From Terriglobia bacterium (GTDB taxonomy: Bacteria; Acidobacteriota; Terriglobia; Terriglobales; Acidobacteriaceae), in the NCBI GenBank assembly GCA_021325035.1, contig JAJPHW010000147.1, positions 1 to 39,020 of the forward strand: a stretch of 39,020 nucleotides of DNA. The letters run 5' to 3'. A program made the position numbers and the translations under genes. The notes beneath the pieces were generated by a model. It was given only the letters and a program-made list of their open reading frames with translations. It was not told the DNA's origin and made no database searches. Positions 1,608 to 23,090 of the stretch are shown one piece after another (the stretch's first letter is position 1; each line of letters starts with the position of its first letter).

Positions 1608-4600
1608 ATGAGTAAAGCTCCATTCCACTCCCGTCGGTTCCTTTCCCCGATATTGCTGGTTCTGTTTGTTTTAAGTCTGGGCATGCTTTGGAGCCAGAGT
1701 CTTCCTACCCAGCCAGCCGGTTATTATGATCGCAAGACTGCGGTTCAAACACCAGATTCTCGCGCGGAGAAGGAAGCCGAGAGTTTGGTGTCGCTTTCAC
1801 CAGAGACCATTATCTCGATTTTGCGTCGGGAAACGGGGCTTTTGCTCGAAGTCAAGAAAGCCGTCGTGCGTAAAGCTTTTGAGCAAGGCAGAATTCTTGA
1901 TGCCTCGGAGTTGACAGACGACAACCTTTACACCATGGTCCGCGAGGATGACAGCGTAAGGGTATTGGCCACTCGTGAGATGGAGCAGCGGGGTTATATA
2001 CGCGCCAAGCCTACGCAAGCAGAACTTGTGCGCACGCCTTTGTGCCCTCCTTCCATGCGTGCCAACGGAGACAAGCAAACCCAGGATCCAGATCCAAAAC
2101 ATTCCCAGGAAGAGGCTTACTGGGTGAAGCACGATGACGATTTGGACTGTTATTTTTATATGACGCCTCCGGAAGAGACGAATGGCGCGAATGCCAATGC
2201 CGCCCAGTCGGCTCCGCAATATCCCAACGCACAATACCCAGCTTCGCCTTACGCGCCTCAACAAAATCTGCCATCGCAATACGCACCAGTTCCGGCCACC
2301 CCACAGAATCCCTACTACGATCAGCGCCGCCAGTTGCAGGCTATACAGATGGAGCAGCGGCAAGAATTCGAAAGCATGCAAGGAACCACGGGTGGATCGA
2401 CGCTGTCCGCCGAAGACCTGCCGGGATTGCTGAGCACCAGCACAGGATCCGGTGGTTTGGCAACTCTCGGAAGACGGAGTTCCGATAGCGGCGACTCGAG
2501 TCTCGGCATGAGCGGTTTGGGGAGCATGGGCGCGGGAGGAACCTCAGATTTTTCATCGTTAGGTTTGCTTTTGGGGCAACAAGGTCAAAGTATCTACGGA
2601 TCCCAATTCCCGCAACAGGCAAGCTTAGAAAATCGGATGCAAATTGTGCCTCCACTGTATTACCCAAAGCCCTCTGAGCAACCCAAGTTACAGCACCGGC
2701 CTAATCCTTACGCCGACGTGCCAGCGTTGTATGACCTTTATGCGCAATATCAAAAACGATCTCCCAAGCTGCAGCGTTTTGGTGAAGATATTTTTGAGAA
2801 CGGGACGGGCAATCTCAACCAGCTCCCCATGGATTTACCAGTGGGGCCTGATTATGTCGTCGGGCCCGGCGATGGCCTGACCGTCCAATTGACGGGAGCG
2901 GTATCGCGGCAGATTAAAGTGATGGTGGATCGTGAAGGGCGCGTCGCGCTGCCGGAGGTAGGGGCGGTCGAAGTTGCAGGAAAGAACATGGGTGACGTCC
3001 AGCGCATTGTTCAGACAAATCTGCGCAGTCAGTATCGCGATGTGGATGCCGATGTCTCCTTGGGGCGGTTGCGCACTGTCCGCGTTTATGTGGTTGGGGA
3101 CGTCGAGCGTCCGGGAGCTTACGATGTGAGTTCTCTTTCCACACCCTTAAACGCGTTATATATCGCAGGCGGCCCCACTTCCCAGGGTTCACTGAGAATT
3201 TTGCGGCATTATCGCGGCAACAAGCTTCTACAGGAAGTGGATGTCTATGATTTGTTGTTACACGGTGTGAGCGGCGACATGATTCGGTTGGAAGCCGGCG
3301 ATACGGTTCAGGTTCCTCCGCTGGGTGGTGAAGTGACGATTGAAGGCATGGTGCGCCGGCCTGCCATTTATGAATTGCACGGCGAAAAGAGCCTGTCACA
3401 AGCGTTGGAATTGGCGGGTGGCGTATTGCCTTCAGGCACCCTCCGCCACGTGGATGTGGAGCGGCTGGAATCCCATGAGACACGGACCATGCTCCGGCTT
3501 GACATCCCGGAAACAAACAATGAGGCCTCGACGCGCTCGGCGTTGGATGGCTTTCAAGTGCAGGACGGAGACAAAATCAAGATTTCTCCGATTCTTCCAT
3601 TCCCCGACAAGACTGTTTACCTGGACGGTCATGTTTCGCGTCCTGGAAAATTTGCCTATCGTGATGGAATGCGAGTCACTGACTTGATCAAGTCATATAA
3701 AGACCTTTTGCCGGAGCCTTATCAAGCGCATGCCGAAGTCATACGATTGCGCGAACCAGACTTTGCACCGGAGATACTGGCTTTCAATCTCGAAAGTGCA
3801 ATGGCCGGCAAAGACGATGACATTGTTTTAAAACCATTCGATACCGTACGTGTTTTCGGGCGCTTTGATTTTGAAGATCAGCCTGTGGTCACGGTGACTG
3901 GCGAAGTTCGCGATCCAGGCGATCACGTCACAAACGGTACTACAACTTTGCGCGATGCGGTCTTTTTGGCTGGCGGCGTGACGCACAACGCGTTGATGGA
4001 TGAGGCCCAGGTTTTCCGTCGCACGGCCGACAATAAGATCGAGGTCGTCAGCGTTGATCTTGAAAAAGCGCTTGCCGGGGACGCAACCCAGAATATTCCC
4101 TTGGGCCCGAAGGATAGAGTTTTTGTCCACAAAAACTTGGCGCAAACCGATCCTCCGATTGTCACGATTTCAGGTGAGGTCGCCAGGCCTGGTAAGTATC
4201 CATTGGGCGAGAACATGACGGCGGCAACTCTTGTGAAGCTGGCTGGAGGGTTCAAGCGCGGAGCTTTCATTCAAGAAGCTGATCTTACGCGCTATGACGT
4301 GGAGCAAGGCACGAAGATGGTAAGCGAACGTGTAGATGTGCATATCTCCGACGCATTGGCAAATGTGGCTGACGCCGATGTACGCCTGCGGGATGGCGAC
4401 GTTCTGGCAATTCGCCAGTTGCCAGGCTGGAAAGACTTGGGCGCAACGATCGAAATCACTGGCGAGGTTGTACATCCCGGAACGTATGGCATTCAAGAAG
4501 GAGAGCGGCTGAGTTCAATCATCAGGCGTGCAGGCGGCTTCCGGTCGGACGCTTATGCCTATGGGTCGCTTTACCAGCGCAGCGAGGTGAAAGACCTCGA

Positions 4601-5195
4601 GACCCGGAATCAAGCGGCGTTGATCCGCAGCGTGCAAAGCCAGGAAGCTGATGTAAAGTTGCAGCCCGAACAAACTGGAGAAGATAAGCTGGTGCGGCAA
4701 GCCGTGCTAGAACAATATCAGGCGACGCTGGAAAATTTGCAGAATACGCCACCGCAGGGCCGCCTAGTGATTCATATCTCCAATAACTTAAAACATTGGG
4801 AAAATACGGCAGCCGACATCCAAGTGCGAGCTGGTGACAGCATTCACGTCCCGAAACGGCCGAGCATGGTGTTGGTGGATGGCGCTGTATATAACCCAAC
4901 TGGCATCGCCTATAAGCCCGGACGAGACGCGGGATGGTATTTAAAACAGTCGGGTGGGCCGACCACGGAAGCAGAGAAGAAAGCTATCTTTGTGATTCGT
5001 GCGGATGGTTCGGTCGTGGGTGGCCAAGGAGGCTTATTTCATAGCGGAGTATCGAGTGCATCCCTGCAACCGGGAGATATGGTCGTAGTTCCTCGAAAGG
5101 TGTATTCAGTGAGCCATGCCTTCCAAAATCTCGCGCTTTCAGCACAGATCGCGTCGGCTGTGACTATCGCTGCATACTATGCAAAGAGCTTCTAG
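1608..5195 (+). CDS. Multi-SLBB-domain polysaccharide export protein (Wza-like)
   Basis: A 1195-aa exporter that probably forms the outer-membrane or periplasmic channel for the polysaccharide. An N-terminal hydrophobic signal segment (about 12-30) precedes a unique region, a Pro/Gln/Asn-rich linker (about 185-240) and a Gly/Ser-rich linker (about 255-325). A polysaccharide-export (Poly_export) domain starting at DYVVGPGDGL spans about 415-490. Seven SLBB units follow, each opening with a G-x-V-x-x-P signature: GDVERPG, GMVRRPA, GHVSRPG, GEVRDPG, GEVARPG, GEVVHPG and GAVYNPT, at roughly 495, 580, 670, 765, 855, 950 and 1090. The C-terminal 30 residues could be the membrane-crossing helix. E. 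coli Wza has about 380 residues, so this protein is about three times longer. The ATG follows AGGTGAT, a good match to the 16S tail. It is first in the cluster and ends 2 bp before the next gene. Confidence 0.93.
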   Translation: MSKAPFHSRRFLSPILLVLFVLSLGMLWSQSLPTQPAGYYDRKTAVQTPDSRAEKEAESLVSLSPETIISILRRETGLLLEVKKAVVRKAFEQGRILDASELTDDNLYTMVREDDSVRVLATREMEQRGYIRAKPTQAELVRTPLCPPSMRANGDKQTQDPDPKHSQEEAYWVKHDDDLDCYFYMTPPEETNGANANAAQSAPQYPNAQYPASPYAPQQNLPSQYAPVPATPQNPYYDQRRQLQAIQMEQRQEFESMQGTTGGSTLSAEDLPGLLSTSTGSGGLATLGRRSSDSGDSSLGMSGLGSMGAGGTSDFSSLGLLLGQQGQSIYGSQFPQQASLENRMQIVPPLYYPKPSEQPKLQHRPNPYADVPALYDLYAQYQKRSPKLQRFGEDIFENGTGNLNQLPMDLPVGPDYVVGPGDGLTVQLTGAVSRQIKVMVDREGRVALPEVGAVEVAGKNMGDVQRIVQTNLRSQYRDVDADVSLGRLRTVRVYVVGDVERPGAYDVSSLSTPLNALYIAGGPTSQGSLRILRHYRGNKLLQEVDVYDLLLHGVSGDMIRLEAGDTVQVPPLGGEVTIEGMVRRPAIYELHGEKSLSQALELAGGVLPSGTLRHVDVERLESHETRTMLRLDIPETNNEASTRSALDGFQVQDGDKIKISPILPFPDKTVYLDGHVSRPGKFAYRDGMRVTDLIKSYKDLLPEPYQAHAEVIRLREPDFAPEILAFNLESAMAGKDDDIVLKPFDTVRVFGRFDFEDQPVVTVTGEVRDPGDHVTNGTTTLRDAVFLAGGVTHNALMDEAQVFRRTADNKIEVVSVDLEKALAGDATQNIPLGPKDRVFVHKNLAQTDPPIVTISGEVARPGKYPLGENMTAATLVKLAGGFKRGAFIQEADLTRYDVEQGTKMVSERVDVHISDALANVADADVRLRDGDVLAIRQLPGWKDLGATIEITGEVVHPGTYGIQEGERLSSIIRRAGGFRSDAYAYGSLYQRSEVKDLETRNQAALIRSVQSQEADVKLQPEQTGEDKLVRQAVLEQYQATLENLQNTPPQGRLVIHISNNLKHWENTAADIQVRAGDSIHVPKRPSMVLVDGAVYNPTGIAYKPGRDAGWYLKQSGGPTTEAEKKAIFVIRADGSVVGGQGGLFHSGVSSASLQPGDMVVVPRKVYSVSHAFQNLALSAQIASAVTIAAYYAKSF

Positions 5196-5197
5196 GG

Positions 5198-7747
5198 ATG
5201 CGATTGGGGAAACGGTTTTCTCGCGTATGCGATGGAATATTGCTTTGCATCTTGTGCGCGGGAATCACGAATGTGCTCTGGGCTCAGTCGCCGGTTAGTC
5301 AATCGGCGCGATCGGCTTCTGCACAGCCGGAGGCAAAGACCACCGGCCAATCTGCCGGCGCTGCCAATCAGGATGGCCAGGACACTGACGCCCAGCATAA
5401 ATTTGATTTGCCGCCAGGCGAAGATCCGCAAAACCGATTGTTGACTCCGTTTCTCAAACATATTGCGTCTGATCAAGCGCGGTTCTGGACCTCGCCGACA
5501 CGTTTCAATGTCAAAGATCTCAAATGGGTTGTGCCTTTTGTCGGAGTGACGGCCGGCTTCATCGCAAGCGACCAGTGGTGGTCGAAGCAGGTTCCGAATA
5601 AGCCCGATCAGTTGAACCGCAGTTTGAATATTTCCGACTATACCGTCTACGCAATAATTGGGGCCGGCGGAGGGGCGTTCCTGCTCGGTCAGATCACCAA
5701 CAGCGACCATATGAAGGAAGCTGGACTGCTGAGCGGGGAAGCGGCCATCAATAGCACTGGCGTCGCCTACCTATTCAAGGAGATCACGCAGCGACAGCGC
5801 CCCATGGAAGGCAACGGCAACGGAAATTTTTTTACAGGAGGGGCTTCATTTCCCTCTGAGCACTCGGCCATTGCCTGGTCGATTGCCAGCGTTATGGCGC
5901 ATGAGTATCCGAGTACGTTAAGCCAGATTGCGGCGTATGGAGCTGCCGCGGCGGTCTCGGTCACGCGGGTCACGGCACGGCAACATTTTCCTGCCGACGT
6001 AGTGGTGGGCAGCGCACTGGGCTGGTACTTCGGACGACAAGTCTATCGAGCTCACCATGATCCGGAAGTCGGTGGCAGCGCATGGGGTAATTTGTTTGAA
6101 GATAAAAGCGAAAGCGGCACGCGTAATCCCAACTACATGGCTTCGCCTTATGTTCCGCTCGATAGTTGGATCTATCCTGCTTTTGAACGCTTGACGGCGC
6201 TTGGCTACGTGCGATCGAACATGCTTGGCATCCGTCCCTGGACAAGGATGGCGTGCGCCCGTTTGCTTGATGATGCGCAGGATCAAATTGCCGGGGATGA
6301 CTCCGACGCGGGAGACGCGGAGAAAATATATACAACTTTGCGGGAAGAGTTTGCCGTGGAAAGTGAACGATTGAGCGGGGCCGCGAACGTGGCAGCGAGT
6401 GTGGACTCCATTTACACACGTTCTACCGGAATCTCCGGGACGCCGTTACGCGACAGTTATCATTTCGGTCAGACCATCACGAATGATTACGGGCGCCCTT
6501 ACTCTGCAGGGTATAACAATGTTACAGGGATCACCGCACAGGCAGAGGCGGGACCACTTGCCATTAATATCCAAGCAGAGTACCAACACGCTCCCGCCAC
6601 TCCTTCTTATTCAGCATCCACGCTCGCTGCGGTCGCATCGGCGGATTTACGTCCGCCGATGGCGAATGGAACGGGTTCAGTTGATCAGGTGAAGCTTATC
6701 AACAGCACGGTTTCTCTCAACCTCAACAATGTGCAATTTACGTTCGGGGAACAAAGTGCATGGCTCGGCCCCGGAGAGTCCGGCTCGTTCTTGATGAGTG
6801 ACAACGCAGCGCCTTTTCCCATGCTCAAAGTGGATGATGTCGTGGCCCACGAGATTCCCGGCTTACTCAAATTTCTGGGGCCCTTCCGCACGGAGTTCTT
6901 TATTGGGCAGTTATCCGGACATCATTGGGAGAGCTGTGTCGTTTCAACCTGCCAAGCTTATCCGGGGTATGCCAACGTGGTTGGCCCGGACATTATTCCG
7001 CAGCCTTTCATCCACGGAGAGAAAATCAGTTTCCAGCCCACGCCGAATCTGGAGTTTGGTTTAGGCCTAACCGCCATGTTTGGCGGGCCGGGATTGCCGG
7101 TGACATTTGGCAATTTCTTCCGTACTTTTTATGCACACTCTTCGACTGCGGCGAATAATCCGGGCAAGCGTATTTCACAGGCAGACTTTACCTATCGCAT
7201 GCCTGGCCTGAGGAACTGGGTGACCCTTTACATGGATTCCCTGGTTGTCGATGAGGTTTCTCCAATTGGTTCGACGCGTGCCAGCGTCAGCCCTGGCATA
7301 TACATGCCGCAAATTCCAAAAATACCGCGGTTGCAGCTGCGGGCGGAGGGATTCAATGAGTCCCGCCATCAAGCATTTGATCCTGGATTTGTATATGCCG
7401 ACATCCGACGGTTTCTTGACGGATATACGAATAACGGATTGTTGATGGGCTCCGCTTTCGGACGCGCGGGGCGGGGCGGGGAAGGCTGGCTGACATATTG
7501 GCTGAGCAGCCGGAACAAAGTAGAAGTGAGCTACCGGTTACAGACTGTATCCCCCAAGTTTATCGGTGGGGGACGCCTCGCAGACTATACTGCTCGGGGA
7601 GAAATTCTGCTAGGGCAGAGCGTATCCGTTGCCGGGTCATTACAATATGAGCAATGGTACTTCCCTGTATTGAATCAGGCGAAGCAGTCGGATGTAGTCG
7701 CATCCGTGCAACTACAGTTTGCTCCACGGTGGCGGATTACGCAGTGA
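5198..7747 (+). CDS. PAP2-family phosphatase fused to Wzi-like capsule assembly barrel
   Basis: An 849-aa two-domain protein. A signal peptide (about 1-29, ending NVLWAQ) leads to a PAP2 phosphatase domain at about 95-290. Its three signature motifs are KEITQRQRP (K-x6-RP, near 193), PSEH (near 218, where the family usually has PSGH) and TRVTARQHFPAD (R-x5-H-x3-D, near 255-268). From about 310 to the end it resembles capsule-assembly Wzi proteins, outer-membrane barrels that anchor surface polysaccharide, with many alternating beta-strand segments. PAP2 enzymes often remove phosphate from lipid carriers such as undecaprenyl pyrophosphate. In this fusion it may act on a lipid-linked or polymer phosphate close to the outer membrane, which is inference. 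It starts 2 bp after the SLBB gene, so the two are probably translationally coupled. Confidence 0.9.
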   Translation: MRLGKRFSRVCDGILLCILCAGITNVLWAQSPVSQSARSASAQPEAKTTGQSAGAANQDGQDTDAQHKFDLPPGEDPQNRLLTPFLKHIASDQARFWTSPTRFNVKDLKWVVPFVGVTAGFIASDQWWSKQVPNKPDQLNRSLNISDYTVYAIIGAGGGAFLLGQITNSDHMKEAGLLSGEAAINSTGVAYLFKEITQRQRPMEGNGNGNFFTGGASFPSEHSAIAWSIASVMAHEYPSTLSQIAAYGAAAAVSVTRVTARQHFPADVVVGSALGWYFGRQVYRAHHDPEVGGSAWGNLFEDKSESGTRNPNYMASPYVPLDSWIYPAFERLTALGYVRSNMLGIRPWTRMACARLLDDAQDQIAGDDSDAGDAEKIYTTLREEFAVESERLSGAANVAASVDSIYTRSTGISGTPLRDSYHFGQTITNDYGRPYSAGYNNVTGITAQAEAGPLAINIQAEYQHAPATPSYSASTLAAVASADLRPPMANGTGSVDQVKLINSTVSLNLNNVQFTFGEQSAWLGPGESGSFLMSDNAAPFPMLKVDDVVAHEIPGLLKFLGPFRTEFFIGQLSGHHWESCVVSTCQAYPGYANVVGPDIIPQPFIHGEKISFQPTPNLEFGLGLTAMFGGPGLPVTFGNFFRTFYAHSSTAANNPGKRISQADFTYRMPGLRNWVTLYMDSLVVDEVSPIGSTRASVSPGIYMPQIPKIPRLQLRAEGFNESRHQAFDPGFVYADIRRFLDGYTNNGLLMGSAFGRAGRGGEGWLTYWLSSRNKVEVSYRLQTVSPKFIGGGRLADYTARGEILLGQSVSVAGSLQYEQWYFPVLNQAKQSDVVASVQLQFAPRWRITQ

Positions 7748-16745: not shown

Positions 16746-17387
16746 ATGAACCGAGCAAGTGAAACTCGTGGATATACTACCGGTAGCGTGCGCGGCTATT
16801 TCGCCGCATATCAGAGTGTGCTCGAAAAGATGCCATATGCCGAAATTGAGCGGGTTATTGCTTTACTTGTGCAAGTTCGGGAAGAAGCTCGATCAGTATA
16901 TCTTTTTGGCAATGGCGGAAGCGCCGCGTTAGCCTCACATTTTGCCTGCGATCTGGGGAAAGGAATTCCACGTGGTAATGAGACGAAATTATTCCGAGTT
17001 ATATCCCTCTGCGACAACATTCCTTTAATGACTGCGTGGGCCAACGACAAATCCTACGATAGTATTTTTTCCGAGCAAATTAAAAATCTTATGGTGCCTG
17101 GTGATATCGCAATCGCGATCAGTGGCAGCGGCAATTCGCCGAATGTTTTGAGAGCGCTTGAGACAGCACGGGGAATGGGTGGGACTACGCTTGGTTTAAC
17201 TGGTTTTAGGGGCGGGAAATTAAAAAACCTTTGCGATTATTGCATGATCGTTCCTTCCGATAACATGCAGGTCATTGAAGATTTTCACTTAAGTATTTGT
17301 CACGCGATTTTTCTAGGGATCTGCCAAAAGATTCAACAGCCTGTAGGCATGGCTGTCGCTGCAGGGGCCGTCCTGCAAAGTGATTAG
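16746..17387 (+). CDS. SIS-domain phosphoheptose isomerase (GmhA-like)
   Basis: A 213-aa sugar isomerase predicted to convert sedoheptulose 7-phosphate to D-glycero-D-manno-heptose 7-phosphate. The SIS phosphate-binding features are GNGGSA (55-60), ISGSGNSPNVLRALE (about 120-135) and an IEDFHLSICHAIF helix near the C-terminus carrying the conserved His. The motif ASHFACDLGKG aligns with FAEEL of E. coli GmhA, so catalytic Glu65 appears to be Asp69 here. That is a variant seen by eye and could mean a sub-family with a related substrate. A clear GAGGA (16734-16738) lies 7 bp before the ATG. An HddA-like kinase and an HddC-like nucleotidyltransferase downstream support the heptose role. Confidence 0.82.
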   Translation: MNRASETRGYTTGSVRGYFAAYQSVLEKMPYAEIERVIALLVQVREEARSVYLFGNGGSAALASHFACDLGKGIPRGNETKLFRVISLCDNIPLMTAWANDKSYDSIFSEQIKNLMVPGDIAIAISGSGNSPNVLRALETARGMGGTTLGLTGFRGGKLKNLCDYCMIVPSDNMQVIEDFHLSICHAIFLGICQKIQQPVGMAVAAGAVLQSD

Positions 17388-17409
17388 AAGCGATAGAGAG
17401 CCAAATATA

Positions 17410-18078
17410 ATGAACTTGACCAGTCAGGCGGTGCAGGTTGAGCCCGTGCGCGGTTCTCGCGATGTTGCCTGCATTGCCACTCGGGACAAGATCATGAAGA
17501 GAATTTTAGATGTGTTTGGATCTTTGATGCTTATTACACTTCTTGGTCCCTTGATGATGTTTATAGCGCTCGCATTGCTGTTGGATCAGGGTATGCCCTT
17601 GATTTACAGGCGCAGAGTAGTTGGATGCAATGGAGAGTTTGACGCCTACAAATTCCGATCGATGCGGAAGGATGCAGATCGAGTTTTACAGTTAGATTCG
17701 CAAATGCGCCTAGCTTTCGAAGAGAATTTCAAGTTGAAATCCGATCCTCGAATCACCAGGCTGGGATCATTTCTGCGCAAGTATAGCCTTGACGAGTTGC
17801 CTCAGTTGTTCAATGTGTTGTTCGGCGAGATGAGTCTGGTCGGTCCACGGATGATCACGGAGCCGGAGTTGGAGAAGTATGGCGATGGTAAGAATTTGCT
17901 GCTTAGTGTGAAGCCTGGCTTGACAGGTTATTGGCAGGTATATGGCCGCCAGGAAGTTAGTTATGCGCAGCGCGTCCAAATGGATATTGATTATATTGCT
18001 GGCTGGCGATTTGGTTGGGACCTGAAAATTCTGCTGTTGACGCCCTACCGGGTGATTCGCGGCCGAGGAGCTTATTGA
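17410..18078 (+). CDS. Short phosphoglycosyl transferase (bacterial sugar transferase, WbaP/PglC-like)
   Basis: A 222-aa monotopic initiating enzyme that should move a sugar-1-phosphate to undecaprenyl phosphate. After a short leader come KRILDVFGSLMLITLLGPLMMF (re-entrant membrane helix), the YKFRSM motif, and SLDELPQLFNVLFGEMSLVGPR with the catalytic Asp128-Glu129 dyad intact. KPGLTGYWQVYGR and the DIDYI helix complete PF02397. The ATG has GAGAG 9 bp upstream; an in-frame GTG at 17380 overlapping the isomerase gene would add ten residues. It lacks the multi-helix N-terminal half of WcaJ-type enzymes. The cluster encodes a second such enzyme at 19133, so which one starts the repeat unit is open. 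Confidence 0.9.
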   Translation: MNLTSQAVQVEPVRGSRDVACIATRDKIMKRILDVFGSLMLITLLGPLMMFIALALLLDQGMPLIYRRRVVGCNGEFDAYKFRSMRKDADRVLQLDSQMRLAFEENFKLKSDPRITRLGSFLRKYSLDELPQLFNVLFGEMSLVGPRMITEPELEKYGDGKNLLLSVKPGLTGYWQVYGRQEVSYAQRVQMDIDYIAGWRFGWDLKILLLTPYRVIRGRGAY

Positions 18079-18080
18079 TC

Positions 18081-19082
18081 TTGAAAATTTTAGTCTCTGG
18101 AGGGGCTGGTTTCGTGGGTTCGGTTTGTTGTGCCGAACTCGTAAGACAAGGGCATTCGGTGTTGGTAGTAGATGATCTGTCCAGTGGTCATGCCGCGGCG
18201 ATCCCAAGAGGTGCAACTTTTCATCGTTGTGATATTGGGAATCAAGAGGCTATGGCGGCGTTGCTACGGGATAATCCCATTGATATTGTTTTTCACTTTG
18301 CAGCCAAAGCTCTGATTGCAGAGTCGATGTCCAACCCTGGTTTTTTTTTCCGGCATAATGTGGCTGCGGGAATCATATTTTTAGAAACATTGCGGAATGC
18401 CGGTATAAGCAAATTTGTCTTTTCTTCTTCGGCCGCCGTATACGGGGCTCCCCGGGAAACCCCAATTCATGAGTCTCATCCCAAGCAACCAGTCAATTCG
18501 TATGGTGAAACCAAGCTCATGTTTGAGCGGATTTTAGATTGGTATGTCTCCGCTTATGGTTGGACAGCCGTTTCTTTTCGATACTTCAATGCCTGTGGCG
18601 CGACTGCAGAGATAGGAGAGGATCACCGTCCTGAAACTCACGTTATACCTTTATTATTGAGGGCCGCTTCTCGAGGCGGCGAGTTTCACATACACGGTGA
18701 TAATTACGCGACACCCGACGGAACCTGCATGCGCGACTATGTGCACGTCGAGGATATCGCTGCTGCTCATCTGTTGGCTCTGCAAGTTGCTGAGGGAGCG
18801 AAGGCTTACAATATCGGTACGGGGCACAGTTATTCAGTGCTCGAAGTGTGCCAAGCGGTTGAAGAGGTCACAGGACATTCGATCGATGTGCGCAAAGGGC
18901 CGCGACGCCCGGGCGATCCTCCCGTTCTATGTGCGAGCCCGGACAAACTCAAAGAGGAGTTGGGCTGGAACCCGAAACATTCTGACTTGCATAGCATTAT
19001 TCGCAGTGCGTGGCATTGGAAACGTTCGCATCCCGATGGTTATATAAGTGAGAATCAAGAACTGGTAACTTTTGCAAGATGA
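18081..19082 (+). CDS. galE: UDP-glucose 4-epimerase-like SDR (GalE family)
   Basis: A 333-aa extended SDR, close to the 338 residues of E. coli GalE. The N-terminus MKILVSGGAGFVGS carries the NAD-binding GGAGFVG (7-13). SSSAAVYG supplies the catalytic Ser, and Y141-G-E-T-K145 is the YxxxK pair. The NACGA and PDGTCMRDYVHVEDIA stretches are typical of GalE. It would supply UDP-galactose or UDP-GalNAc-type donors. A TTG start at 18081 sits 10 bp after GAGGAG (18065-18070) and begins exactly at the first beta strand. TTG at 18075, overlapping the upstream stop, is an alternative, and longer versions run into the previous gene. Confidence 0.88.
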   Translation: MKILVSGGAGFVGSVCCAELVRQGHSVLVVDDLSSGHAAAIPRGATFHRCDIGNQEAMAALLRDNPIDIVFHFAAKALIAESMSNPGFFFRHNVAAGIIFLETLRNAGISKFVFSSSAAVYGAPRETPIHESHPKQPVNSYGETKLMFERILDWYVSAYGWTAVSFRYFNACGATAEIGEDHRPETHVIPLLLRAASRGGEFHIHGDNYATPDGTCMRDYVHVEDIAAAHLLALQVAEGAKAYNIGTGHSYSVLEVCQAVEEVTGHSIDVRKGPRRPGDPPVLCASPDKLKEELGWNPKHSDLHSIIRSAWHWKRSHPDGYISENQELVTFAR

Positions 19083-19132: not shown

Positions 19133-20563
19133 GTGAAAGCTAAGAGACTTAGATACTTGATACTTGCGGCCGATCTTATATGGATGCCGGTGGCATTGTA
19201 TTTGAGCTATACAGTGCGCCATGGGGTCGCTCATACCCATACTTTTTGGTTGACGTACCTCCAGTTCATTCTGGTCGCGAGTGCTCTGTGGGTTGGATTG
19301 TTCTCAGCTATGAAGCTGGACGGCTTCCGCATGGGATGGTATATGCCGGCCGTGGCATCGCAGTTGATACTCGGAATCGGCACGTTAATACTACTGCTTC
19401 TTGCCATTGATGATTTGGCCCGCTTTTATGTCTCACGGCTTCTCCTAGGTTATTTCGGTGCGCTTTTGTTTGCCGGTTGCGTTTGCATTCGCCGTGGAGT
19501 ACATGCGTTTTTGCGATCTCGCTATCTGGAGTGGGCAGTGCGCCGAGTTATAGTGGTTGGCAGCGGACCGGTGGCGCGTGAAATTGCCGCAAAATTTGGG
19601 CGACATCCGGAGTTGCTTTGTCAGGTCGTCGGATTCCTCTGCTCTGAGGATGCGGGGCTGGATTTACATCCACAAGGACCTTCTGAAGGTTACTTGAATA
19701 TATCAACTCTGGGAATTATCGATCTGCTGCGGAATCGCGGCGTGGACGAGGTGATAGTCGCGCTTCCTAGTATGGATTCTGGTGTCATGAATTTGGCGGC
19801 TCGTTGCCGGATACAAGGTATCAGGGTTAGTGTTGTTCCCCATCCTTACGAGTTGTATCTGTCAAAACCGGAACTTGTCGATGTCGGGGGACTTCCGGTT
19901 CTACAACTGCATCAAGCGAATGCAGCTTTTGCCGATTCTATTTGGAAACGCGGGCTGGATGTTGTTTTTGGTTTGATTCTTGCCGTTCTGACTCTGCCGC
20001 TGGTGCTTGCGGGAATCTTGGTATTACGGAAAAGGCCAGGCGGCGGCATGTCTTTCGAACGGCGCTGCGGGCGTCTGGGGGAAACATTCTCAATGTTGCG
20101 TTTGAACTCAGAACGAGATCGGGCAGGAATTTCCAGATGGGAAAGTATGCTGCAACGGTTAAGTATTACCGAGCTTCCGCAATTATGGAACGTATTACGC
20201 GGCGACATGAGCTTAGTTGGTCCGCGCCCGGAGTCTCCTGAACGCGTGAAACACTACTCGGACTGGCAACGCCAGCGTTTGAATGTAAAGCCGGGAATGA
20301 CTGGAATGGCGCAGGTACATGGATTACGTGAACAGAATTCTTCCGAGGAGAAGACACGATACGACTTACAGTACATGCTAAACAGCTCCCCCTTTCTGGA
20401 CTTATCACTGATGATGCAAACCGCGTGGACTTTGATCATGCGGTTCATCCGTTTGCCCGGTGCTCCGCGTCAGCAAACTGACAATCAGACAGACCCCGTT
20501 CTAAATCGTGTTTTCGAAGGAACCATACCCAATGCTCATCGGGCGCAGTCCAGTACGAATTAG
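19133..20563 (+). CDS. Long WcaJ-like phosphoglycosyl transferase with altered catalytic dyad
   Basis: A 476-aa protein with the layout of WcaJ/EpsL-type enzymes: four N-terminal transmembrane helices (about 5-125), a Rossmann-like CoA_binding_3 domain (VIVVGSGPVAREIAAKFG at about 138-160), another membrane helix (GLDVVFGLILAVLTLPLV), and a sugar-transferase domain. The MSLVGPRPESPERV and KPGMTGMAQVHGLR motifs are present. Two catalytic positions deviate. The usual K-x-R-S-M reads LRLNS, and the Asp-Glu dyad before LPQL reads Thr346-Glu347 (codon ACC at 20168-20170). In PglC-type enzymes that Asp is the nucleophile. It may be inactive, regulatory, or use different chemistry. It starts at a GTG 50 bp after galE; no in-frame ATG is closer. 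Confidence 0.85.
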   Translation: MKAKRLRYLILAADLIWMPVALYLSYTVRHGVAHTHTFWLTYLQFILVASALWVGLFSAMKLDGFRMGWYMPAVASQLILGIGTLILLLLAIDDLARFYVSRLLLGYFGALLFAGCVCIRRGVHAFLRSRYLEWAVRRVIVVGSGPVAREIAAKFGRHPELLCQVVGFLCSEDAGLDLHPQGPSEGYLNISTLGIIDLLRNRGVDEVIVALPSMDSGVMNLAARCRIQGIRVSVVPHPYELYLSKPELVDVGGLPVLQLHQANAAFADSIWKRGLDVVFGLILAVLTLPLVLAGILVLRKRPGGGMSFERRCGRLGETFSMLRLNSERDRAGISRWESMLQRLSITELPQLWNVLRGDMSLVGPRPESPERVKHYSDWQRQRLNVKPGMTGMAQVHGLREQNSSEEKTRYDLQYMLNSSPFLDLSLMMQTAWTLIMRFIRLPGAPRQQTDNQTDPVLNRVFEGTIPNAHRAQSSTN

Positions 20564-21611
20564 TTTTGGTGGTGGCGGAACAGATCTGCCCGCATACTAC
20601 GAGCAGTTTGGCGGAGAAGTATTAAGTGTATCGATCAATAAATACTTCTATACCATTCTAGGGGCCAGACATGATGGGCGTGTCCAAGTAATCTCTTCTG
20701 ATTTGCGAGTCTTTGAGAGTTGGAAAGATATCGCAAACTTACCTATTCAAGATAGCGAACTGGAGATTCCGCTAGCAGCGATAAAAGATCTAGGAGGCAA
20801 CCTTGCTGTGGATCTATTTCTTGCTTCGGAGATTCCTCCCGGAACCGGGTTGGGATCCTCCGCCAGCGTTTGTGTAAATATTATCAAAACGCTCACGCAT
20901 TACCTACATCGGCCTATTTCTAAATATGATCTGGCGGAGCGCGCTTTTCATATCGCGCGCAACACATTGCACAAACGTGTGGGCAAGCAAGATGAATACG
21001 CCGCCGCTTTTGGCGGGCTGAACTATATCACTTTCAGCTCGGATGGATCTGTACAGGTCGAACCTGTGCATTTGGACGAAATTGTTTTGCGCGAATTTCA
21101 ATCTAGCTTGATGCTGTTCTTTACCGGATCCGCGCACCACTCCTGGACAATTTTGGCCGAACAGGAGAAATCCACTCGCTCACATTCAGGGGGCACACTG
21201 GAAGCGCTGCATGAAGTAAAGGCACTGGCGACCAAAATGCGTCGTGCTTTGGAAATGGGCAAGATTGACGAGTTTGGTAGGTTGCTCGATGAAGGTTGGC
21301 GTGCGAAGCGGCGTGTGTCAGATAAAATTTCGACTCCCAGGATTGACCATCTTTATATGCGTGCCCGCGAAGCCGGGGCAATCGGCGGCAAGATAACAGG
21401 GGCTGGCGGTGGAGGATTCTTATTACTTTGTTGCGAACCACCCTTCCAACAACAAGTGCGAGAAGCCTTGGCTGAGGAGGGAGTTCAGGAAATGAACTTT
21501 GCCTTTGACTTTCAGGGGGCCCAGGTGATCGTGAATGACCCGTTCATCGATGGCGATGTTCAAGGAGGGAAGCAGTGGATATTTGTGCCTGCTTCGATAG
21601 GGGCACGATGA
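20532..21611 (+). CDS. hddA: GHMP kinase, D-glycero-D-manno-heptose 7-phosphate kinase-like (HddA-like)
   Basis: A 359-aa kinase predicted to phosphorylate D-glycero-alpha-D-manno-heptose 7-phosphate at C1. RSPVRISFGGGGTDLPAYY at the N-terminus is the signature of the HddA/fucokinase-like group. The GHMP ATP loop PPGTGLGSSAS is at about 102-112, and the C-terminal GKITGAGGGGF near 286-296 is motif 3. The ATG has GAAGGA 10 bp upstream and lies inside the end of the previous gene (32-bp overlap). A GTG at 20508 is possible but would begin in unrelated sequence. The GmhA-like isomerase upstream and the nucleotidyltransferase directly downstream support the heptose pathway. Confidence 0.85.
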   Translation: MLIGRSPVRISFGGGGTDLPAYYEQFGGEVLSVSINKYFYTILGARHDGRVQVISSDLRVFESWKDIANLPIQDSELEIPLAAIKDLGGNLAVDLFLASEIPPGTGLGSSASVCVNIIKTLTHYLHRPISKYDLAERAFHIARNTLHKRVGKQDEYAAAFGGLNYITFSSDGSVQVEPVHLDEIVLREFQSSLMLFFTGSAHHSWTILAEQEKSTRSHSGGTLEALHEVKALATKMRRALEMGKIDEFGRLLDEGWRAKRRVSDKISTPRIDHLYMRAREAGAIGGKITGAGGGGFLLLCCEPPFQQQVREALAEEGVQEMNFAFDFQGAQVIVNDPFIDGDVQGGKQWIFVPASIGAR

Positions 21612-21677: not shown

Positions 21678-22379
21678 GTGAAAGCATTCCTTCTGGCTGC
21701 GGGTCATGGTACACGCCTGCGGCCCTTAACTGACCATACACCGAAATGCCTCCTGCCCATTCGTGGCGTGCCTTTGCTTGGAATTTGGTTGCAAATCTGT
21801 GCTGCGCTAGGAATTGATGAGGTACTTATCAACATTCATTATCGCGCAGACCAAGTCAGAGAATTTCTCAACCAGCGAGATCCGCATCCGAAAGTGATTG
21901 TTGTGGAAGAGAAAGAACTGCTGGGAAGTGGCGGAACACTACGAGCGAACCAGAAATGGGTGGCTGGGGAAGATCTTTTCTGGGTGTTCTACGCGGATGT
22001 GCTCAACAGCAATGATCTCCATTCCATGATGGATGCTCATCGTCGAAGCAGTCCAGCCGTAACCCTCGGCGTTTATCGAGTTCCTGATCCATCACGCTGT
22101 GGCATTGTCGAACTGTCTGCAGACAATGTCGTGGAAAGATTTGTGGAGAAGCCTCGCCAGCCTGCGAGTGATCTGGCCTTTTCTGGGATTATGATTGGAA
22201 CACCCGCTTTTCTTGAGGCCATACCGCCCGGCAAGTCTGATATTGGGTACGACGTGCTTCCAAAATTGGGAGGGCAAATGATTGCTTATCCGATTACGGG
22301 GTATCTTCTCGATATTGGTACGATGGACAATTATGAACAGGCACAAATCACTTGGCCGGGTTTGCCTCTACCGGTTTAA
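21678..22379 (+). CDS. hddC: Nucleotidyltransferase, heptose 1-phosphate guanylyltransferase-like (HddC-like)
   Basis: A 233-aa sugar-phosphate nucleotidyltransferase. The N-terminal LLAAGHGTRLRPLTDHTPKCLLPI (from residue 5) holds the G-x-G-T-R nucleotide loop and the PK lysine (Lys23). FWVFYADVLNS supplies the metal-binding Asp, and VERFVEKP is the following conserved strand. The length matches HddC/RmlA-like single-domain enzymes with no C-terminal left-handed helix. In context it should make GDP-D-glycero-alpha-D-manno-heptose from the 1-phosphate. Base specificity (GTP versus CTP or UTP) cannot be read directly. The start is a GTG at 21678 with a weak AGG upstream. Confidence 0.85.
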   Translation: MKAFLLAAGHGTRLRPLTDHTPKCLLPIRGVPLLGIWLQICAALGIDEVLINIHYRADQVREFLNQRDPHPKVIVVEEKELLGSGGTLRANQKWVAGEDLFWVFYADVLNSNDLHSMMDAHRRSSPAVTLGVYRVPDPSRCGIVELSADNVVERFVEKPRQPASDLAFSGIMIGTPAFLEAIPPGKSDIGYDVLPKLGGQMIAYPITGYLLDIGTMDNYEQAQITWPGLPLPV

Positions 22380-22409: not shown

Positions 22410-23090
22410 ATGGTGAACGGTATAGTTTTCGATCTGGACGGAGTCATTGTAAACAGCCATCCAGCACACAAGCGTGCTTGGCGACATTTTCTTAATGGTC
22501 TGGGAAAAAAAACATCGGAAGCGGATTTGGATTTTATTCTTGAGGGGCGGAAACGAGAGGATATTCTACGTCACTTTCTCGGCGATCTTTCTGATGAAGA
22601 ATTGGCCCGATTCGGCAGGCAGAAAGACGAGTTCTTTCAGAAAGTGGCCGAAGAAGTCCCTGCAGTCCCAGGTGTGCTCCAGTTCTTAAAAGAATTAGCC
22701 GTGGCGGGATTACCCTGCGCAATTGCTACATCCGCCAGTCGCCGTCGGACGCAACTAACATTGGAAAGGCTTTCGCTGACCAAACATTTCCGCGCGGTAG
22801 TAACTGGCGACGATGTTACTCAAGGTAAGCCTGATCCGGCGATCTACCGGCTTGCCGCGCAGAAGTTAAATCTTTCACCTGAATACCTGCTGGCCATAGA
22901 GGATGCCCCTGCAGGTGTGAAAGCCGCGACTTCCGCAGGCATGTTGTGCATCGGAGTTGGTAGTCCTTTGAAGGCAGGTGATCTCCGCAAAGCTGGTGCC
23001 GGGCACGTTATTCCAGACTTCGCCAATGTTAGTTTGCAAAGTTTAGCCGAGAGTATACTTCCGAGAGCTGCACAAATCGTGCAAGTCTAA
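22410..23090 (+). CDS. HAD-IA phosphatase, beta-phosphoglucomutase-like
   Basis: A 226-aa HAD hydrolase. Motif I is FDLDGVIVNS (nucleophile Asp8, general acid Asp10), motif II Ser is in IATSAS, motif III Lys is in QGKPDPAIY, and motif IV is AIEDAPAGVKAA. An alpha-helical C1 cap at about 16-80 places it with beta-phosphoglucomutase/phosphonatase-like enzymes and not with the capless GmhB family. Its place right after the HddA- and HddC-like genes suggests it provides the missing 7-phosphate removal from heptose 1,7-bisphosphate. That is inference; a mutase or general sugar-phosphate phosphatase is also possible. GGAG lies 13 bp before the ATG. Confidence 0.85.
   Translation: MVNGIVFDLDGVIVNSHPAHKRAWRHFLNGLGKKTSEADLDFILEGRKREDILRHFLGDLSDEELARFGRQKDEFFQKVAEEVPAVPGVLQFLKELAVAGLPCAIATSASRRRTQLTLERLSLTKHFRAVVTGDDVTQGKPDPAIYRLAAQKLNLSPEYLLAIEDAPAGVKAATSAGMLCIGVGSPLKAGDLRKAGAGHVIPDFANVSLQSLAESILPRAAQIVQV

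Follow-up and report, generated by a model that had tools for sequence, protein, structure and literature searches.

A conserved clade of large phosphoglycosyl transferase-like proteins without the catalytic aspartate, encoded next to HddA-like kinase genes

Results and discussion

The locus

The window (the whole 39,020-nucleotide stretch of DNA analysed here) carries two phosphoglycosyl transferase (PGT) genes, one short and one long, within a likely heptose-type operon. The product of the long gene, here called TE-PGT, is a large protein of the WcaJ/WbaP type whose dyad reads Thr-Glu instead of Asp-Glu. The features of the locus are as follows.

16746..17387, + strand: SIS isomerase, GmhA-like (domain search, TIGR00441, PDB matches)
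17380..18078, + strand: short PGT with an intact Asp-Glu (PF02397, 192.7 bits; alternative ATG start at 17410, the one taken in the original prediction)
18081..19082, + strand: UDP-glucose 4-epimerase GalE, start inferred (TIGR01179, 369.5 bits, above the cut-off of 262.3; run on 18057-19082)
19133..20563, + strand: TE-PGT, 476 aa (open reading frame, PF13727, PF02397, AlphaFold model)
19133..19528, + strand: four N-terminal helices of TE-PGT, residues 3-132 (model helices 3-30, 38-60, 71-96 and 102-132)
19535..19912, + strand: Rossmann-like cytoplasmic domain, CoA_binding_3 (PF13727, model strands)
20099..20113, + strand: R323-L-N-S-E327 in place of K59-F-R61-S-M63 (clade comparison)
20153..20155, + strand: Gln341 at the equivalent of PglC Arg88 (clade comparison)
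20168..20173, + strand: T346-E347, the altered catalytic dyad (codons ACC GAG, within SITELPQLWNVLRGDMSLVGPRP)
20532..21611, + strand: GHMP kinase, HddA-like (domain search; its ATG lies within the TE-PGT gene, giving a 32-base overlap)
21678..22379, + strand: sugar-1-phosphate nucleotidyltransferase with a putative HddC-like role (profile matches)
22410..23090, + strand: HAD phosphatase (best match a beta-phosphoglucomutase-like subfamily, under its cut-off)

Predicted fold of TE-PGT

A domain search placed PF13727 at residues 74-234 and PF02397 at residues 272-435 of TE-PGT. With a PF02397 (Bac_transf) score of 139.4 bits against a cut-off of 27, the protein has the defining domain of the superfamily. 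It stays below the cut-offs for WcaJ (TIGR03023, 220.7 vs 410.75) and EPS_sugtrans (TIGR03025, 254.1 vs 295.55). The AlphaFold model (mean pLDDT 85.9) predicts a complete large-PGT fold and matches both WbaP of S. enterica (8t53; Z 19.9, rmsd 8.7 over 383 residues) and the small PGT PglC of Campylobacter concisus (8e37; Z 18.7, rmsd 2.7 over 171 residues) (both VIA). Like WbaP and WcaJ-type large monotopic PGTs, TE-PGT thus has N-terminal helices, a Rossmann-like domain, a re-entrant helix and a catalytic domain, the last of these sharing its fold with PglC. By analogy with WbaP, the N-terminal helices (residues 3-132) are presumably transmembrane. The Rossmann-like domain, which in the model closes with two strands (246-251 and 254-259), has a 3nkl- and Rex-like fold in structure comparison (Z about 11 over 96-106 residues). 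The DX12P motif of the re-entrant helix is present as D276 and P289.

Loss of the catalytic aspartate

The dyad context in TE-PGT reads SITELPQL. In phmmer alignments against solved structures, T346 pairs with the Asp of SLDELPQL in PglC (8e37, 8g1n) and WbaP, which rules out a misplaced nucleophile column. The Asp in question is Asp93 of PglC, which we take to be the nucleophile that bears the covalent intermediate. The original prediction of Thr-Glu in the long protein (codons ACC GAG) and of an intact Asp-Glu in the short enzyme (dyad at 17791-17796) is therefore correct on both counts.

Asp is absent at this position from all 39 members of a clade that shares about 34-58% identity with the window protein; in its place are Thr (30), Ser (7), Ala (1) and Arg (1). 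The original prediction had suggested checking whether Thr is conserved in homologues; what they share is the loss of Asp, and not a strictly conserved Thr. The Ala occurs in L184, whose close sister has Ser, and the Arg in L036; both operons are intact as far as the contig reaches. The other 160 distinct PGT sequences all have Asp-Glu, out of 199 readable at the dyad across all loci fetched. This count left out rows that were gapped at the dyad or had fewer than 45 residues of context, and the 160 sequences were drawn from the clade searches and neighbourhoods, making them an uneven sample of the superfamily. Within the window's genome, there are five PF02397 matches, and the three beyond the window are all Asp-Glu. 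Every member of the superfamily is said to include an Asp-Glu dyad in one published account (PMC10519829). Among the matches listed in the open-licence literature, we recognised no report of a PGT clade without the dyad.

Other changes in the active site

The dyad is not the only site altered. As originally predicted, the K-x-R-S-M motif has also changed, reading R323-L-N325-S-E327 in the window. The Lys59 equivalent is Arg in 39/39 clade members, and the Arg61 equivalent is Asn in 34, Asp in 3, Ser in 1 and Ala in 1 of the 39. The Met63 equivalent is replaced throughout (39/39), by Asp or Glu in 32/39 (position 327). All three of K, R and M are present in 40/40 large Asp-Glu PGTs. At the Arg88 position, Arg is found in 0/39 clade members, which hold nine different residues there, vs 160/160 Asp-Glu PGT sequences. 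Lys59 and Arg88 are named beside the dyad in PMC12802240, and the window has R323 and Q341 at these two positions. PMC10519829 states that Arg88 of PglC is predicted to mediate Und-P binding and that R88Q has minimal activity, and PMC12550135 that Met63 is predicted to contact uracil. The loss of these four further active-site residues supports the view that TE-PGT is something other than a normal initiating enzyme.

The mobile loop has been partly lost as well; from the Lys59 column to the Glu94 column, clade members have 17-24 residues vs 36-47 in the 40 large Asp-Glu PGTs. In these respects (dyad Asp, the Lys59, Arg61, Met63 and Arg88 equivalents, and loop length), TE-PGT is unlike WbaP and WcaJ-type enzymes, and unlike PglC it has lost Lys59 and Arg88 and has Thr, Ser, Ala or Arg at Asp93 across the clade. 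Of the positions that Asp-Glu enzymes conserve and the clade has lost, most are near the active site and the mobile loop; positions 304, 417 and 426, away from the motif, are exceptions.

Much of the pocket is nevertheless kept. The equivalents of PglC Glu94, the GPRP Arg and Asp11 are present in 39/39 clade members, and those of Lys7 and, probably, Arg145 in 38/39. The pocket residues E347, R323, W378 and R365 occur in 39/39, and an acidic residue specific to the clade, E309, lies near the lost motif in 37/39. In the re-entrant helix, the Asp of DX12P is found in 39/39 and the Pro in 31/39, compared with a Pro in 34/40 Asp-Glu enzymes. The proline at position 289 is missing from one branch of the clade (L127, L133, L139, L196 and L137).

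Origin and retention of the clade

Among 200 genomes of the window's family (the window's own included), 25 encode a close relative at E 1e-80 or better, and the next match lies at 1e-39 with 32% identity. A search of the order matched 34/397 genomes at 1e-50, of which 32 belong to the window's family and two to one other family. A search of the phylum matched 22/396 genomes at 1e-40; two are clade members (the window's and G108), and the other 20 are Asp-Glu. The order search and one Acidobacteria MAG record (L036, apparently genome G584 of this order) brought the clade to 39, two of them from the second family of the same order. L036 is also the one clade member among the best 80 matches of a contig scan. 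These counts cover the genomes drawn and the matches above the cut-offs (1e-40 for the phylum, 1e-50 for the order).

A maximum-likelihood tree of 80 rows places all 39 members of the clade on one side of a branch with an SH-aLRT of 100. One Asp-Glu protein, L200 (genome G476, same phylum but another family), joins them ahead of 40 other large Asp-Glu PGTs, with a support of 99. The tree was built by a quick method with midpoint rooting and without bootstrap, from an alignment that held the altered active-site columns, and L200 is the sister of the clade if the root lies among the other 40 rows. The dyad, Lys, Arg61 and Arg88 of L200 are all intact, although its loop is already shortened, to 26 residues. 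Its operon has the same neighbours as TE-PGT, comprising a short PGT, epimerase-like genes, the long PGT, a kinase, a nucleotidyltransferase and an isomerase. This intact dyad in the same operon context indicates that the operon probably already had an active-looking PGT when the loss of the dyad occurred. Near five other Asp-Glu relatives of L200 (L209-L213), no kinase match was found.

All 39 clade sequences are open frames, three of which (L026, L189 and L199) are cut by contig ends. In seven close clade pairs, dN/dS lies between 0.07 and 0.20, with saturated dS (2.4) in one of them (L007-L180), a sign of purifying selection on the altered gene. The clade thus combines a conserved loss of catalytic residues with a fold and a gene retained under apparent selection, as is characteristic of a pseudoenzyme. 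A pair of TE-PGT modules is present in each of two genomes, G134 (L123/L140) and G053 (L125/L134).

Linkage to an HddA-like kinase

The HddA-like kinase gene lies directly downstream of the TE-PGT gene in 38/39 loci; the exception, L189 (G583), has no kinase match within 8.7 kb downstream. The same arrangement occurs in 0/14 control loci of large Asp-Glu PGTs from the same family, of which L151 and L146 show just 0.2 and 0.9 kb of downstream sequence; in L147, a weaker kinase match (34%) lies 1.4 kb beyond the PGT gene. Seen from the kinase, 24/200 family genomes encode it at at least 59% identity, and TE-PGT is present in 23 of these 24, the 24th being G022. Two genomes with TE-PGT, G075 and G052, have a cut or broken kinase frame and are outside the 24.

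With start codons chosen by pattern, the TE-PGT and kinase frames overlap by 8-32 bases in 33/38 clade loci. Five loci were missed by the pattern; the coordinates give 32 bases for four of them (L123, L124, L126 and L132), and the kinase frame of L125 is broken. In the window, the 32-base overlap runs from 20532 to 20563. The TE-PGT stop is TAG in 38/38 loci, and both this and the conservation of the C-terminal tail follow from the reading frame overlapping the kinase start. We considered this tail (AHRTQSSAD) as a docking peptide, but its conservation is explained by the overlap and the idea was ruled out.

The best solved relatives of the kinase are heptose and sugar kinases (3k85, 4usm, 4usk and 4n3o), and its best family is HddA (NF049969), even though its 211.7 bits fall short of the cut-off of 600. 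Similarly, the best PDB matches of the isomerase are phosphoheptose isomerases, and it scores 110.5 bits for GmhA (TIGR00441) against a cut-off of 209.45. As both proteins fall under their NCBIfam cut-offs, the assignment of the neighbouring genes to a heptose pathway is likely rather than proven. A GmhA-like isomerase, nucleotidyltransferase and HAD phosphatase usually fill out the clade operons. Some sets are incomplete; for example, L130 and L131 are without the isomerase, and L129 and L134 without the nucleotidyltransferase or phosphatase.

The short PGT

The short PGT is the probable initiating enzyme of the cluster. Setting aside six loci at contig edges (L128, L135, L136, L137, L189 and L199), a short Asp-Glu PGT lies on the same strand within about 7 kb upstream of TE-PGT in 29/33 informative loci. 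Their identity to the short PGT of the window falls into two ranges, 34-45% and 53-65%. On contigs of varying length, a second PGT-like open reading frame was seen neither in the 14 large Asp-Glu loci of the same family nor in 79 further PGT loci. The four loci with no short PGT upstream (L127, L133, L139 and L196) sit in a single five-row branch of the tree (support 96). In 4/5 of the genomes of this branch, searched whole, a short PGT is encoded elsewhere (53-66% identity), in the case of L196 (G663) 8.3 kb downstream; the fifth genome, G177, gave weaker short-PGT matches only.

G022 has no TE-PGT gene but retains the short PGT, epimerase, kinase, nucleotidyltransferase and phosphatase. Because two relatives of the same genus have the gene, its loss from G022 appears to be an internal deletion. 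Remnants of its two ends can be seen between the epimerase and kinase genes (L231, 10073-10260). Together, G022 and the loci without a short PGT upstream weaken the case for an obligate partnership between the two PGTs.

Possible functions

We propose, with a probability of roughly 0.6, that TE-PGT is a conserved pseudo-phosphoglycosyl transferase that serves a heptose-polysaccharide pathway as a membrane-bound, non-initiating component. Its ancestor would have been an active-looking Asp-Glu large monotopic PGT whose gene already lay ahead of that for the HddA-like kinase. In the lineage, presumably of Acidobacteriota, that led to the window's family and one other family of its order, the nucleophile would then have been lost along with donor- and acceptor-binding residues, and the protein retained under purifying selection. 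TE-PGT most likely no longer loads sugar phosphate onto undecaprenyl phosphate, a task that would fall to the short, intact PGT. Its helices and Rossmann-like domain may instead anchor it as a binding or docking subunit, with the remodelled pocket (which keeps Glu347, Arg323, the GPRP Arg and Arg399) binding a sugar phosphate, a nucleotide sugar or another anionic ligand. In this way, it may keep the kinase and the heptose pathway close to the membrane or regulate them there. G022 counts against this proposal, as it shows that the gene can go while the operon stays. So do L189, with no kinase match downstream, and the sub-cut-off scores behind the heptose assignment of the neighbours. A pure scaffold would also not need so strongly conserved a pocket, which could catalyse another reaction.

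Such a new activity is rather unlikely in our estimate. A neofunctionalised pocket might act on, for example, heptose phosphate or NDP-heptose and need no covalent aspartyl intermediate, in keeping with the invariance of Glu347, Arg323, the GPRP Arg and W378 (39/39), the clade-specific acidic residues around the lost motif (E309 in 37/39, Asp or Glu at 327 in 32/39) and the near-strict linkage to the HddA-like kinase. However, the recognisable pathway in the window already covers the isomerase, kinase, phosphatase and nucleotidyltransferase steps, and neither residue 346 (T/S/A/R) nor the Arg88 position (nine different residues) is held constant. The fuller version, in which catalysis on these heptose substrates, again with no aspartyl intermediate, is coupled to the heptose-type kinase through the overlapping genes, we consider unlikely. 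The "different chemistry" of the original prediction thus survives in this form, but hardly with Thr as the nucleophile of a normally active initiating PGT. Thr and Ser (30 and 7 of 39) do both carry a hydroxyl, but the Ala of L184 and the Arg of L036 at the same site, and the loss of the Arg88, Lys59, Arg61 and Met63 equivalents, make such an enzyme very improbable.

The "regulatory or scaffold partner" of the short PGT that was also originally suggested is a weaker idea than it first looks, the linkage to the kinase being tighter (38/39). Here TE-PGT would supply WbaP-like membrane and cytoplasmic domains in trans, as a regulatory or dimer partner controlling initiation. This would fit the short PGT upstream in 29/33 informative loci, vs no second PGT-like open reading frame in 14 + 79 control loci. 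It would also fit PMC12802240, in which a large PGT is reported to be controlled by a regulator that binds it, with an effect thought to be on its dimerisation. However, the short partners fall into two identity ranges (34-45% and 53-65%) and may not all descend from a single co-inherited gene. L127, L133, L139 and L196 have none upstream, even though one is found elsewhere in those genomes, and the short PGT remains alone in G022. We regard a partnership of this kind as distinctly unlikely. As for a decaying pseudogene or a sequencing artefact, the deletion in G022 speaks for decay, but the 39 open frames and the dN/dS of 0.07-0.20 in seven pairs refute this reading, leaving it scarcely credible.

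The clade is a variant of a known fold and a testable pseudoenzyme. As its nearest relative keeps the dyad intact among the same kinds of operon neighbours, it amounts to a natural experiment on the uses of the PGT fold. It is also a warning, since family annotation alone would label these proteins as initiating enzymes. For the bench, it raises the question of whether a large PGT-like protein can serve a heptose pathway without PGT catalysis; a new catalytic use, if true, would mean a reaction new to the monotopic PGT fold.

The HddA/GmhA/HddC heptose pathway of C. jejuni, as described in PMC10680097, has its isomerase, kinase and nucleotidyltransferase genes together, as here. Unlike the pathway described there, the clade operon includes a PGT-like protein, and its phosphatase, at most a putative GmhB, is closest to a beta-PGM-like subfamily. 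Further upstream, the window also encodes a 1195-aa polysaccharide export protein with Poly_export and SLBB stretches (1608-5195; five PF10531 and three PF22461), followed by an 849-aa protein in which a PAP2 phosphatase domain is fused to a Wzi capsule-assembly barrel (5198-7747).
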